This document shows, piece by piece, positions 11,878 to 58,093 of a stretch of 58,093 nucleotides of DNA. Within the stretch, counting starts at the first letter, position 1. The number at the start of each line of letters is the position of its first letter. The stretch is from NCBI GenBank assembly GCA_024640845.1, contig JAHEEE010000017.1:1-58093 (forward strand), given 5' to 3'. The notes beneath the pieces were generated by a model. It worked only from the letters and a program-made list of their open reading frames with translations, was not told the origin of the DNA and ran no database searches. The translations under genes were made by a program, and so were the position numbers. Origin of the DNA: Myxococcales bacterium (lineage in GTDB: Bacteria; Myxococcota_A; Polyangia; Polyangiales; Houyiibacteriaceae).

Positions 11878-11973
11878 CGCGACAAGACTCGGGCGGGGTG
11901 GCGGTTTGCGTCAAAAAAGCTGCGTCGGGGGTGGCGTTTGGGGATCGAGATTGCAGGGGCGGGGTCAATGGAC

Positions 11974-12140
11974 GCGATTGGCGTCGGGAGGTTTAGTTAC
12001 ATCCGCCCGCCCGCCCCCACCGCGTAATCCTCCCTCCGCGGCACTCGCTTCGCTCTGCCTTGGCGGCGCGTTCGCGCCGGGCTTCGCCCTGCGGGCTCGC
12101 GGGTTGGTGGCTTCTGCGGTGGGGAGGGCTGGTGGCGTGG
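11974..12140. repeat. Dispersed GC-rich module, copy A1
   Basis: First copy of a roughly 160-base module. It opens GCGATTGGCGTCGGGAGG, passes through a C-rich run of CCGCCC/CCCCAC, then ACTCGCTTCGCTCTGCCTTG, GGCGGCGC, GGGCTTCGCCC and GGGCTCGCGG. It continues into a spacer GGTTGGTGGCTTCTGCGG also present in copy D1. The same module recurs at 12141, 31819, 40644, 57698 and 57862. Open frames through it are low-complexity Arg/Ala/Gly translations and I do not consider them genes. Confidence 0.9.
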
Positions 12141-12299
12141 TTTGGTTTAGTTAATGTCCACCCGCCCACCCCCACCCGTAGTCCTCCCTCCGCGGCACTC
12201 GCTTCGCTCTGCCTTGGCGGCGCTTCGCGCCGGGCTTCGCCCTTCGGGCTCGCGCTGCCGCGCGTGTCTTCGGGCCGGGTTTCTTGCGTGCGCACATTG
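12141..12299. repeat. Dispersed GC-rich module, copy A2
   Basis: Second, tandem copy of the module, entering at TTTGGTTTAGTTAATGTCC, lacking the first 15 or so bases of copy A1, and ending with GCTGCCGCGCGTGTCTTCGG and CGGGTTTCTTGCGTGC. The same A1-A2 dimer arrangement, including the spacer, is seen in copies D1-D2 at the window end. It runs directly into the structured module at 12300. Confidence 0.9.
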
Positions 12300-12549
12300 T
12301 CGCAGCCCTTTTGATGCAAAGAGTCGTTCATAAGGGGCTCGGAAAAACGCGATGGGGGTTGGAGCGGGCGTGCGAAGTGCCAATCGGCACGACAGCAACC
12401 ACCCCCGATTGGCGCGCCGCCCGAGGCGAGGCTTGCGTGGCCCGACCCTCCCAGTTCTTCCGGCCACCTTTGCAAGCCGAGCCGTCCCGTGAAACCCCCC
12501 ATCGTGTTTTTCCGAGCCCCGTGTGCACCTCGACGCCCGGGCGTGGTGC
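12300..12549. repeat. Structured multi-stem module, copy A
   Basis: A 250-base module predicted to fold into four stems. P1 pairs 12334-12358 with 12496-12520 (25 bp, one G-U). P2 pairs 12379-12387 with 12405-12413 (9 bp perfect). P3 pairs 12430-12442 with 12462-12478 (13 bp around a 4-base CTTT bulge). P4 is the hairpin 12525-12549 with core ACGCCCGGGCGT. P2 and P3 are nested in P1. A second full copy at 31986 keeps all four stems with compensatory changes. No open frame explains it. Transcribed strand is unknown. Confidence 0.85.
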
Positions 12550-12577: not shown

Positions 12578-13492
12578 TCAGTCCGCCGTGCGGAAGCTGT
12601 TGATCGTTTCCCTCTCGTCGTACGAGTAGCGGAAATCCGTTGCGCGGCGGAAGGTCTCGCTGTCGACCACGATGGGGTATTTCAGATGATCGATCGCGCC
12701 CGCAGGCAGCGAGGGTAGCCCGAGTCGCCCTAGGCCCATCCTGAAGAGCGCCTCCGGCATTCGAAGCGGCCTTCTCCCGGCGGCTCTCACGATCGTCGCG
12801 AGCGGCACCGGCGTCGGGCCCGACACGTTGAAGATGCCGTGGAGCTTGTGGGCGACGGCGGTGACGATCGCCTCGGCGGCATCGAGCTCGTGAATGAAGT
12901 GGAACAGCGGATCGAATCCCATCACCAGGGGGACAGTCGGGCCCTTGAGAAAGGTTCCGAGCGTTCCATGGCGGCTTGGGCCGAGGGTGTACACGATGCG
13001 CAAGACCGCCGTCGCGATCTCCGGGTAGCGCCAGAGCGCCGAGGCGGCGTAGAGATCCGCTGCGACCAAGTCGGCGAGCTCGGGGAATGCGTGCGCAGAG
13101 ATCGGAGGCTCGTCCTCCGTGTGGTAGAGCGGCGAGTCCGCCGCGGCTCCGTAGAACGTGTGGCGTCCGGCAAAGACCGCCTGTTTGACGCCGTAGCTGT
13201 GACAGTGCTGGATGAACGCTCGCGTTCCGTTGAGGTTCACGCGCATCCGGTCGGGGCTTTGGTGCACCAAGTGGGTGACCGTCGCCATATGGATTGCGGC
13301 GTCCGGGCGATACGTCCGAAACACGTCTTCGGCGGGGCGCTTTCGAATGTCGGCCTGATGAACCTCGATCTCGGGAGGCCCCTCCGGCCAAGGGCGCCGA
13401 TCGATCCCGACGACGTCGTAGCCCCTTCGCAACAGCTCGAGCCCCACCAAACGTCCGAGCTTCCCCGAGATGCCTGTCACTAGAACCTTCAT
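12578..13492 (-). CDS. NAD-dependent epimerase/dehydratase (SDR family)
   Basis: An extended-SDR protein of 304 residues. The N-terminal nucleotide motif is [15 protein letters not shown] (a G-x-x-G-x-x-G variant). The usual YxxxK catalytic pair is not obvious: the region after [11 protein letters not shown] reads [13 protein letters not shown], so a classical Tyr-Lys dyad may be degenerate. The substrate cannot be named. It starts at ATG 13492 and shares one base with the acyltransferase stop (TGATG), or from GTG 13495 with a 4-base overlap. This coupling suggests a lipid or envelope-related role. Confidence 0.78.
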
Positions 13493-31682: not shown

Positions 31683-31687
31683 CCAGC

Positions 31688-31727
31688 GCGGAGCCCCGTG
31701 GTGACGAAGTCACTTTACGGGGTCAGC
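31688..31727. repeat. 40-base double-stem hairpin unit, copy 1
   Basis: Outer arms CCCCGT (31694-31699) and ACGGGG (31717-31722) enclose an inner stem GTGAC-GAA-GTCAC. The unit starts GCGGAG and ends GGTCAGC. Directly after it, CCCGTAAAG is the reverse complement of CTTTACGGG, extending the structure. Identical to copy 2. Confidence 0.9.
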
Positions 31728-31767
31728 CCGTAAAGCCGCTGCTTCGCATCGCCCACGGGCCTTCGGC

Positions 31768-31807
31768 GCGGAGCCCCGTGGTGACGAAGTCACTTTACGG
31801 GGTCAGC
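31768..31807. repeat. 40-base double-stem hairpin unit, copy 2
   Basis: Identical to the copy 80 bases upstream. The intervening segment (AAGCCGCTGCTTC, GCCCACGGGCC, TTCGGC) is itself repeated, with one base difference, at 57611-57652, so the repeated unit is about 80 bases there. Confidence 0.9.
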
Positions 31808-31818
31808 GAACAAGCGAG

Positions 31819-31985
31819 TGGCGTCGGGAGGTTTAGTTATCTCCACCCGCCCACCCCCACCGCGTAATCCTCCCTGCGCGGCACTCGCTTCGCTCTGCCT
31901 TGGCGGCGCATTCGCGCCGGGCTTCGCCCTTCGGGCTCGCGATGCCGCGCGTGTCTTGGACCCGGGGCATTGTGCGTACACACGC
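31819..31985. repeat. Dispersed GC-rich module, copy B
   Basis: Single (not dimeric) copy of the module, from TGGCGTCGGGAGGTTTAG to the CACGC before the structured module. It carries the ACTCGCTTCGCTCTGCCTTG core and ends GATGCCGCGCGTGTCTTGG, diverging afterwards from the A2 and D2 ends. Confidence 0.9.
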
Positions 31986-32231
31986 TGTCGCAGCCCTTCT
32001 TTCGCAAAGAGTCGTTCATGAGGGGCTCGGAAAAACGCGACAGGGGGTGGAGCGGGCGTACGAAGTGCCAATCGCAAGACCGCAGCCACCGCGATTGGCG
32101 CGCCGTCCGAGGGCGGCTTGCGCGGCCTGACCTCCCCAGTCCTACGAGGCCGCATCTGCAAGTCGCCCGTCCCGTGAATCCCCCTGTCGCGTTTTTCCGA
32201 GACCCGGGTGCAACTCGACGCCCCGGGCGTC
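31986..32231. repeat. Structured multi-stem module, copy B
   Basis: Second full copy. P1 pairs 32022-32047 with 32180-32205 (25 of 26), P2 32067-32075 with 32091-32099 (9 bp perfect), P3 32111-32127 with 32148-32168 around a 4-base ATCT bulge, P4 hairpin 32217-32231 (7 bp). Relative to copy A, P1 gains a base pair with matching changes on both sides, P2 swaps its last pair G-C to C-G, and P3 changes T-A to C-G. Confidence 0.85.
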
Positions 32232-32267
32232 ACGCATCCGCGCGTCGCGACCGATTCTCCGGGCCAT

Positions 32268-32370
32268 CAATCGCCATCCCCGGCCACCGATGCAAGCCGA
32301 GCCGTCCCGTGAAACCCCCATCGTGTTTTTCGCGAGACCCGTCAGCACCTCGACGCCCGGGCGTTGTGGG
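32268..32370. repeat. Right half of a third structured module
   Basis: A partial copy carrying only the 3' half: GGCCACCGATGCAAGCCG (right side of P3), CCCCCATCGTGTTTTTCGCG (right side of P1, copy A type) and CTCGACGCCCGGGCGT (P4). No left half lies in front of it, so it is a truncated remnant in tandem behind copy B. Confidence 0.8.
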
Positions 32371-40632: not shown

Positions 40633-40643
40633 CGTCGATGAAC

Positions 40644-40800
40644 GCGATTGGCGTCGGGAGGCTTGTTTACATCCACCCACCCACCCCCGCCCGTAGTCCT
40701 CCCTCCGCGGCACTCGCTTCGCTCTGCCTTGGCGGCGCATACGCGCCGGGCTTCGCCGTTCCGGCTCGCGCTGCCGCGCATGGCTTGGAAGCTCTCGGGG
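40644..40800. repeat. Dispersed GC-rich module, copy C
   Basis: Copy starting GCGATTGGCGTCGGGAGG and carrying ACTCGCTTCGCTCTGCCTTG. It ends two bases before the stop of the four-helix-bundle gene. There is no structured module behind it: the four-helix gene takes that place. Confidence 0.9.
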
Positions 40801-40802
40801 CG

Positions 40803-41135
40803 CTAGCGAGCTCGGCTCAAGCACCAGGTGATGGCGCAGACCCGGTCGAGCCTCCGATCGAGGCGCGCCACCCTTTGCGCCTCGAGGTACCCCCAGTCAC
40901 TCGCGACATGAAGCGCGGCGCGGACTTCCTTTGCGGACCCGCACGCCGTCGCGAACCGAAGGCGTGCGTTCCCCGTATCATTCCCGCGCCCCTCGGCCAT
41001 GTTCAGCACGATACTCTGCGCCGCTCGCCTCAGTTGATCAGCCAATTTCGCATCCTGCTCCCGAATCTTCTGCAGTAGCGGCCCGAGCTCGCGCACAACC
41101 TCCCGCGCCCTGACGTAGACATTCTTCTTCTCCAT
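40803..41135 (-). CDS. Four-helix-bundle protein (S23/IVP, Avd-like)
   Basis: A 110-residue four-helix-bundle protein of the family also found in 23S rRNA intervening sequences and, as Avd, in diversity-generating retroelements. Typical features are the start YVRAREVVRELGPLLQKI, DQLRRAAQSIVLNMAEGRGN (the family's SIxxNIAEG-like core) and RFATACGSAKEVRAALHVA. The start at ATG 41135 has AAGGAG just upstream, partly inside the base of a 23-bp hairpin (41143-41195). Family members are basic RNA-binding pentamers; the role here is unknown. It sits within repeats in the ruvC-ruvA gap, suggesting later insertion. Confidence 0.85.
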   Translation of the reverse strand: MEKKNVYVRAREVVRELGPLLQKIREQDAKLADQLRRAAQSIVLNMAEGRGNDTGNARLRFATACGSAKEVRAALHVASDWGYLEAQRVARLDRRLDRVCAITWCLSRAR

Positions 41136-41142
41136 AGCGACT

Positions 41143-41195
41143 CCTTGGTGTTGGGTTTTGGTCTCACCCGCGGAGACCAAAACCCAACATCAAGG
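41143..41195 (-). promoter_or_regulatory. 23-bp hairpin over the four-helix gene's ribosome site
   Basis: Arms 41143-41165 and 41173-41195 pair over 23 bp with one G-U and a 7-base loop (ACCCGCG). Read in the gene's direction, the 3' arm ends CACCAAGG and the Shine-Dalgarno AAGGAG begins there, so the folded leader would partly mask the ribosome site. May be a translational control element or an end of a mobile unit. Confidence 0.7.
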
Positions 41196-41216
41196 ACAAG
41201 CGGCGTGGAAGAAGGA

Positions 41217-41343
41217 CAGCGTCAGCGTCAGCGTCAGCGTCAGCGTCAGCGTCAGCGTCAGCGTCAGCGTCAGCGTCAGCGTCAGCGTCAGCGTCAGCGT
41301 CAGTGTCAGCGTCAGTGTCAGCGCCAGCGTTCAGCGTCAGCGC
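41217..41343. repeat. (GTCAGC)n hexamer array, about 18-20 copies
   Basis: Tandem GTCAGC units, the first 13 perfect (41221-41298), then GTCAGT, GCCAGC and a broken unit. The array ends against the double-stem hairpin unit, whose own end is GGTCAGC, so the array looks like an expansion of that terminal hexamer. Frames through it encode (Asp-Ala)n or (Ser-Val)n and are not genes. Confidence 0.95.
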
Positions 41344-41381
41344 GGAGCCCCGTGGTGACGAAGTCACTTTAGGGGGTCAGC
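41342..41381. repeat. 40-base double-stem hairpin unit at the ruvC stop
   Basis: Same unit with one changed base in the right outer arm (AGGGGG for ACGGGG). Its end GGTCAGC supplies the ruvC stop codon (TCA at 41377-41379, read as TGA on the minus strand), so the unit abuts the gene end exactly. Confidence 0.88.
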
Positions 41382-41862
41382 GGCCGATCCCCTTCGATCT
41401 CGTCGCCTGAATATGCGTAATCGCCACCGCCAGCGCGTCGGCCGCGTCTTCCTCGGGCGGCTCTTTGAGCCCCAGCAGGGCGCTGACCAGCCTCCCCACC
41501 TGCACCTTGTCCGCGGCGCCTCGCCCCACGACGGTTCGCTTCACGATCGCCGGCGGATACTCGTGTACCGCGATCTCCGACTGCGCGGCCACCAGCAGTG
41601 CAACGCCGCGCGCATGGCCGAGCTTGAGTGCCGCGTTTGCGTACTTCGCGAAGAAGATCTCTTCAACCGCCACCGCCTCCGGTGTATGTGCTGCGATCAC
41701 CCGCTCGAGCTCCGCGTGAATCATCCGGAGTCGGTTCGCGAGGGCGAGCTTCTCGGGCACTGCGATCGTTCCAGCCGCGATGTGCCGGAGCCGTGTCCCC
41801 TCGAGCTCCACGACGCCCCAGCCCGTGCGTCGGCTGCCGGGGTCGATGCCGAGGACTCGCAT
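41377..41862 (-). CDS. ruvC: Holliday junction resolvase RuvC
   Basis: RuvC, 161 residues. The catalytic acids appear in VLGIDPGSRRTGWG, AVEEIFFAKYANAA, and the C-terminal DAADALAVAITH. It cleaves Holliday junctions with RuvAB. It starts 6 bases after yebC. The gene's last codons and stop lie in the hairpin repeat unit, and the last residues GIGR may be derived from repeat insertion. Confidence 0.96.
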   Translation of the reverse strand: MRVLGIDPGSRRTGWGVVELEGTRLRHIAAGTIAVPEKLALANRLRMIHAELERVIAAHTPEAVAVEEIFFAKYANAALKLGHARGVALLVAAQSEIAVHEYPPAIVKRTVVGRGAADKVQVGRLVSALLGLKEPPEEDAADALAVAITHIQATRSKGIGR

Positions 41863-57622: not shown

Positions 57623-57652
57623 GCTGCTTCCCATCGCCCACGGGCCTTCGGC

Positions 57653-57692
57653 GCGGAGCCCCGTGGTGACGAAGTCACTTTACGGGGCCAGC
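57653..57692. repeat. 40-base double-stem hairpin unit, copy 4
   Basis: Same unit as at 31688 and 31768 with one change (GGCCAGC for GGTCAGC at the end). It is preceded by the same 40-base spacer (CCCGTAAAGCCGCTGCTTC...CCTTCGG) as between copies 1 and 2. Confidence 0.9.
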
Positions 57693-57697
57693 GAAAC

Positions 57698-57861
57698 GCG
57701 ATTGGCGTCGGGAGGTTTAGTTACATCCAACCCGCCCGCCCCCGCCCGTAGTCCTCCCTCCGCGGCACTCGCTTCGCTCTGCCTTGGCGGCGCACTTGCG
57801 CCGGGCTTCGCCCTGCGGGCTCGCGGGTTGGTGGCTTCTGCGGTGGGTTGGGCTTGGGACC
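57698..57861. repeat. Dispersed GC-rich module, copy D1
   Basis: Copy beginning GCGATTGGCGTCGGGAGG, with the ACTCGCTTCGCTCTGCCTTG core and the GGTTGGTGGCTTCTGCGG spacer shared with A1. Confidence 0.9.
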
Positions 57862-58051
57862 TGGTTTGGTTTAATTACATCCGACCCGCCCACCCCCGCC
57901 CGTAGTCTCAGTATCACTCTCATGCGAGTGAGCAGCGTGCCTCCGCGCGCTTTGCTTCGCTCTGCCTTGGCGGCGCACTTGCGCCGGGCTTCGCCCTGCG
58001 GGCTCGCGCTGCCGCGCGTGTCTTCGGGCCGGGTTTCTTGCGTGCACTGAT
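57862..58051. repeat. Dispersed GC-rich module, copy D2
   Basis: Second unit of the D dimer. In place of the usual TCCTCCCTCCGCGGCA it carries a different 35-base insert including CACTCTCATGCGAGTG, which is an inverted repeat, then rejoins the family at TTCGCTCTGCCTTGGCGGCG. Confidence 0.88.
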
Positions 58052-58093
58052 TGTCGCAGCCCTTCTTTCGCAAAGAGTCGTTCATCAGGGGCT
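58052..58093. repeat. Start of a further structured module, cut by the window end
   Basis: The first 42 bases of the structured module (TGTCGCAGCCC, TTTCGCAAAGAGTCGTTCAT, AGGGGCT) are present and match copies A and B. The rest, including the four stems, should continue past the end of the window. Confidence 0.8.

Follow-up and report, generated by a model that had tools for sequence, protein, structure and literature searches.

Copies of the repeat element in the window

The window analyzed here, i.e., the whole 58,093-nucleotide stretch of contig JAHEEE010000017.1 from a Myxococcales bacterium, contains two full copies of a structured repeat element and parts of two others, all on the + strand. 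The core of copy 1 extends from 12333 to 12524, as delimited by the RNAalifold consensus of 55 copies, its mapping to the window, and a covariance model match of 216.5 bits. In the mapped consensus, the outer stem P1 is formed by 12341-12360 with 12494-12513 and the inner stem P1b by 12364-12368 with 12486-12490, and the hairpins P2 and P3 are formed by 12369-12387 with 12405-12423 and by 12425-12442 with 12462-12483, respectively. The core of copy 2 (32021 to 32209; consensus, window mapping, and covariance model match of 188.9 bits) takes the same fold, with P1 mapped to 32029-32048 and 32179-32198, P2 to 32057-32074 and 32092-32109, and P3 to 32111-32127 and 32148-32168. Single-sequence folding against dinucleotide shuffles gave z values of -6.7 and -7.6 for copies 1 and 2, respectively. 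The original prediction was based on paired positions that change together between these two copies, and re-reading of the bases showed each change to be correct: GAT/ATC in P1 becomes GACA/TGTC, the last pair of P2 flips from G/C (12387/12405) to C/G (32075/32091), and a T/A pair in P3 (12438/12466) is replaced by C/G (32123/32152). The 4-base bulge that it described in P3 is likewise found in both copies (CTTT at 12468-12471 and ATCT at 32154-32157).

An alignment of 28 copies from the same genome shows that the core is preceded by a common 5' flank (TGTCGCAGCCC...CATAA; 12296 to 12332 in copy 1, + strand) and followed by a common 3' tail (12525 to 12549, + strand), which ends near the palindrome GACGCCCGGGCGTC; the flanks of these copies diverge beyond that palindrome. 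The 3' half of a further copy lies at 32280 to 32368 (+ strand); before it, at approximately 32240-32265, is the end of another structured repeat, D (GGAGAATCGGTCGGGATGCGCGGCAC...CGACCGATTCTCC). Such a fusion of D to the element's 3' half spans 32240-32368 in the window and is also present at L125, L126, L127, and L130. The 5' start of a fourth copy (58051 to 58093, + strand) is cut by the end of the contig. Two B modules, i.e., UUCG-loop hairpin repeats of the type that precedes the copies of this genome, are located at 11973-12279 (+ strand), outside the conserved core, and another is located upstream of copy 2 at 31818-31985 (+ strand). B modules form hairpin arrays throughout the genome, often directly 5' of the element, and they also occur in the window at 40643-40789 and 57697-58033. 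A further hairpin repeat, CCCCGTGGTGACGAAGTCACTTTACGGGG, is found at 31686-31727, 31760-31807, 41337-41382, and 57645-57692. In the region 40803-41342 of the window, a gene for a four-helix bundle protein of the 23S_rRNA_IVP family lies between ruvA and ruvC; an inverted repeat of 42 nt (41124-41214) and a tandem array of CAGCGT (41217-41330) are next to it.

Consensus fold and covariation

The consensus fold obtained with RNAalifold from a sequence-only alignment of 55 copies consists of the long stem P1, which continues inward as P1b, and of a three-way junction from which the hairpins P2 and P3 extend. Unguided folding of single copies recovers approximately 95% of the consensus pairs. Among the 55 copies of the genus, 97.9% of the cells are paired and both sides have changed in 34 of the 57 pairs (16.2 in shuffles), and pairing falls below 50% when one arm is slid. 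A second set of 57 copies, in which copies from four further genera were added to those of the genus and the alignment was fitted to the model, shows 98% of the cells paired and both-side changes in 46 of the 57 pairs, including all 20 pairs of P1; the covariation score is 0.610, compared with 0.149 in shuffled alignments and at most 0.091 with one arm slid. Pairing in P1 is kept even where the letters are wholly different (e.g., in G042), and the hairpins P2 and P3 also covary. On the other hand, letters are kept at the junction, P2, and P3 (GTG.CAA/TTGGC, CGAGG, and TTGC/GCAA), and a wobble U-G pair is retained in 53 of 55 genus copies and in 50 of 57 copies order-wide.

Covariation was tested against a phylogeny-aware null with our own R-scape-like procedure, in which substitutions were replayed on a FastTree tree. 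On the model-fitted alignment, 23 significant pairs lie inside the structure and 1 lies outside, adjoining a pair, among 17766 tested. Because this alignment was fitted to the model, the test was repeated on a sequence-only MAFFT alignment, in which 8 significant pairs lie inside and 2 outside. Of the 57 pairs tested by themselves, 38 and 24 were significant on the fitted and sequence-only alignments, respectively, and the genus copies alone, for which the test has little power, gave 4 significant pairs, of which 3 are in the structure and 1 is beside it. Since the letters change in matched pairs while the fold stays, selection acts on the folded single strand across several genera. The selected single-strand structure proposed in the original prediction is therefore supported by covariation, shuffle controls, and the phylogeny-aware null, and additional covarying pairs are significant, an outcome that the prediction had named as support; a check for paired positions that vary independently found no such variation.

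Where one strand has a G-T wobble, the opposite strand has an A-C mispair. Among pairs that are most often Watson-Crick, G-T occupies 88 cells and A-C occupies 8, and 40 changes on the tree lead from Watson-Crick to G-T, whereas 6 lead to A-C (p of about 3e-7); the structure was predicted on the + strand, which biases these counts slightly, and the restriction to Watson-Crick pairs was meant to limit this bias. The + strand folds better than the - strand in 49 of 57 copies. The large excess of G-T over A-C therefore identifies the + strand of the window as the folding strand, and pairing of this strand is what matters. Copying is strand-symmetric, whereas the counts are asymmetric, which disfavors an origin of the matched changes by arm-to-arm copying. 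The same asymmetry, together with the conserved bulge and wobble, excludes recent inverted duplication.

Copy number and taxonomic range

The observation of two copies was correct but understated: a BLAST search of the genome that contains the window (4.14 Mb in 145 contigs, 95.6% complete) detects the element at approximately 40 sites, many of them at contig ends, with 83-98% identity to copy 1. The copies form two subfamilies and are up to 98% identical, which fits a recent amplification. In the genus, 18 of 19 genomes carry the element. BLAST matches 17 of the 18 other genomes and detects only fragments of approximately 30 bases outside the genus. The covariance model, which was built on the 55 genus copies, detects a single copy in each of G016 and G018, and the other genus genomes have up to about 45; some matches in these totals are echoes of P1, a near-palindrome, on the reverse strand. 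Such a search of the genome and its relatives had been suggested in the original prediction, and it yielded extra copies across both the genus and the order. Among 184 genomes of the order, 6 of the 165 outside the genus carry the element, detected by the covariance model only; these belong to five other genera in three families, with best E-values from 1e-17 to 3e-6. A pattern scan of named genomes matched the uncultured myxobacteria SG8_38, bin861, and other relatives in the genus, and its single matches in Desulfovibrio look like chance. Phages, plasmids, and viral contigs gave no match to the element.

In agreement with the earlier expectation that no named family would match, no Rfam family, including HEARO, was matched by 18 loci at E-values of up to 1, apart from one viral miRNA model; the only sub-threshold scores were to miRNA models. 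The Rfam search of the window at E-values of up to 5 gave nothing useful.

Mobility, placement, and limits of the unit

The gene at 12578-13492, next to copy 1, belongs to the NAD-dependent epimerase family and has orthologues in the genus. The gap after the orthologue is empty (approximately 92-400 bp) in G003, G004, G013, G015, G016, and G018, contains an inverted element in G000, G007, and G012, and contains a direct element in G001 and G011. A reciprocal case is provided by three genes spaced A-822-B-67-C (in bases) in the window's genome, where the element lies in the A-B gap, and A-90-B-465-C in G004, where it lies in the B-C gap. The copies are thus mobile: orthologous gaps are filled in some species and empty in others, and in either orientation.

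Genes were called with a codon-usage script of our own, for which the window served as the training set; by these calls, 40 copies lie in convergent gaps and 5 in divergent gaps, while those in co-directional gaps are 15 sense and 21 antisense, with no preference for sense. The distance from a copy to the facing stop codon is often less than 60 bases. Taken alone, these placement statistics would also agree with a repeat that is neutral or with a function at gene 3' ends. No target-site duplication was definable by eye in the copies compared, and no protein common to the neighbors of the copies was found. The neighboring genes scanned against families are ordinary, with no transposase or integrase among them.

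A search for candidate mobilizers next to the copies gave no transposase, RAYT, or reverse transcriptase. Y1_Tnp genes are present in 13 of the 19 genus genomes, and no copy lies within approximately 1.5 kb of the 20 Y1_Tnp matches, as judged by BLAST and by model R2. RAYT as a cis partner was rejected on this ground; in addition, the window's own genome has a gene whose inverted repeats (GGGGACAG) are unrelated. This gene, the single RAYT-like Y1 transposase gene of the genome (L109), is flanked by inverted GGGGACAGG / CCTGTCCCC repeats at approximately 1363-1385 and 2165-2195, and GGGGTCTGACCCC hairpins resembling the Y1-flanking repeats occur near element copies in G007 and G011. RVT_1 is present in 2 of the 19 genus genomes and is absent from the complete, copy-rich G004, G012, and G015 and from the window's genome; a reverse transcriptase was rejected as the driver on this ground. 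No copy was seen at the reverse transcriptase loci of the genus. An autonomous version between outward-facing copies was considered for the 5.3-kb case in G001 and was unsupported there; the two scanned genes of this case are ordinary.

The limits of the unit differ among species. In G021, similarity starts approximately 10 bases before P1 and stops a few bases after P1, whereas in the window's genome the 37-base 5' flank, the 25-base tail, and the upstream B module travel with the core. The copies of G001 form a larger unit, which consists of a D module, the core, and a tail within outer 20-bp inverted repeats (CCCCGGAGGACGGGTCGCGAC); the D module there, which precedes the core, is a relative of the repeat D found in the window. 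Head-to-head pairs occur in G001 and in G047, in the latter with approximately 170-250 bases between the two copies. The core is the common denominator of these species-specific units; since the flanks vary by species, what moves may extend beyond the core. Six-base repeats of the CACTGG/CAGTGG type fill intergenic spacers in the genus and sometimes lie between D and the core (L146, L147, L208, L212, L213, and L216).

Proposed mechanism and alternative explanations

On balance, the element is probably a dispersed, non-autonomous mobile repeat whose folded strand is recognized in trans by a putative enzyme, a reading in which we have moderate confidence. The folded single strand would be exposed either as single-stranded DNA in replication or repair or as a transcript, and the trans-acting enzyme would recognize it and excise it or copy it into new places. 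Only foldable copies would multiply, which would keep the fold, and insertions in promoters and coding regions would be removed, so that the survivors would lie mainly at gene 3' ends. We lean toward single-stranded DNA rather than RNA as the folded strand, because the G021 unit starts approximately 10 bases from P1 and has no room for a promoter, and because sense and antisense copies are about equally frequent between co-directional genes. A bolder proposal, i.e., that the element represents a new class of mobile element in which an approximately 190-nt single strand with a three-way junction is the transposition substrate of a putative enzyme and has been kept across the myxobacterial order, is tentative and rather doubtful.

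The lack of room for a promoter in the G021 unit and the lack of sense bias weigh against a mobile structured RNA, in which the + strand would be transcribed and the RNA would act in an RNA-guided or ribonucleoprotein element like HEARO, its protein having been lost or acting in trans. The strand-specific fold, the retained G-U pairs, the near-constant wobble U-G, and the conserved core letters would suit such an RNA, but no Rfam family is matched, and we regard it as possible yet somewhat unlikely. The excess of convergent gaps and the short distances to facing stop codons would agree with a cis-acting 3'-end element, such as a bidirectional terminator, an RNA stabilizer, or a barrier between convergent genes. 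However, orthologous gene ends lack the element, it occurs in both orientations, and no conserved T-run follows the stem at the end of the unit, which makes a function of this kind improbable.

Two further explanations take the inverted ends as their starting point and are both very improbable. If the copies were msr-msd sequences derived from a retron, a reverse transcriptase would have spread them, as has been proposed for msDNA-like repeats of Nannocystis exedens (Lampson and Rice 1997, as cited in PMC6868368). In favor of this, P1 encloses two stem-loops in a layout like that of msr-msd, and the host is a myxobacterium. Against this origin are the scarcity of RVT_1 in the genus, the lack of copies at the inspected reverse transcriptase loci, and the lack of an Rfam match. 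An ordinary MITE or palindrome in which templated repair or a recent inverted duplication had matched the arms, with no selection acting on the fold, would explain the near-palindromic P1 and the outer inverted repeats of the G001 copies; however, strand-symmetric copying of arms cannot yield more G-T than A-C, P2 and P3 covary as well, and the bulge, the wobble, and the letters of the junction are retained from genus to genus.

Comparison with known systems

A structured mobile repeat that would work like a REP, unusually elaborate, appears to be the best reading of the element. REP, REPIN, and BIME sequences, which are mobilized by RAYT (TnpA-REP), occur in many intergenic copies located mostly 3' of genes and between convergent genes, are often paired in opposite orientation, and fold as single strands (PMC3733652, PMC3116915, PMC8266576). 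The present element is similarly extragenic, lies at gene 3' ends, and forms head-to-head pairs in two genomes. REPs are single hairpins of 20-40 bp with a GTAG or CGTC tag, whereas the element is approximately 190 nt long, has a three-way junction, and carries no constant tag (GTAG is found at its 5' base in G021 only, and other genomes differ); unlike REPs and REPINs, it has no copy beside a RAYT gene. A survey of 50 genomes described mobile or repeat sequence candidates that are frequently associated with transposase or integrase genes, one of which, MRSC-65-2, has dozens of copies per genome, strong covariation, an orientation inconsistent with its neighbors, and an RNA or DNA form left undecided (PMC11109978). 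The element shares with these candidates the covarying structure, several copies per genome, and inconsistent orientation relative to genes (PMC11109978). MRSC-65-2 consists of a single long stem and contains a UYCCGG repeat (PMC11109978), whereas the element has two hairpins on a closing stem. UYCCGG is present in 10 of the 57 element copies. In its behavior, the element resembles both REPs and these candidates but is more complex.

HEARO and other RNAs of IS200/IS605-like or IscB elements are mobile, multi-copy, and structured, and many have no open reading frame. Unlike HEARO, the element gave no covariance model match, and no associated gene was found among the neighbors scanned. It is similar to MITEs in being short, non-autonomous, and intergenic with inverted ends, which are formed by the P1 arms in all copies and by the outer repeats in G001; we know of no MITE core that keeps a strand-specific covarying fold across genera. 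The inverted ends enclosing stem-loops are also similar to retron msr-msd, but a reverse transcriptase is absent from 17 of 19 genus genomes and none lies next to a copy. Few multi-copy bacterial repeats have a branched, strand-specific fold with such compensatory change across genera, and the element provides a test case for the spread of structured non-autonomous repeats. The family is absent from Rfam and is thus an addition to it. The element probably accounts for many of the contig breaks in assemblies of the genus.
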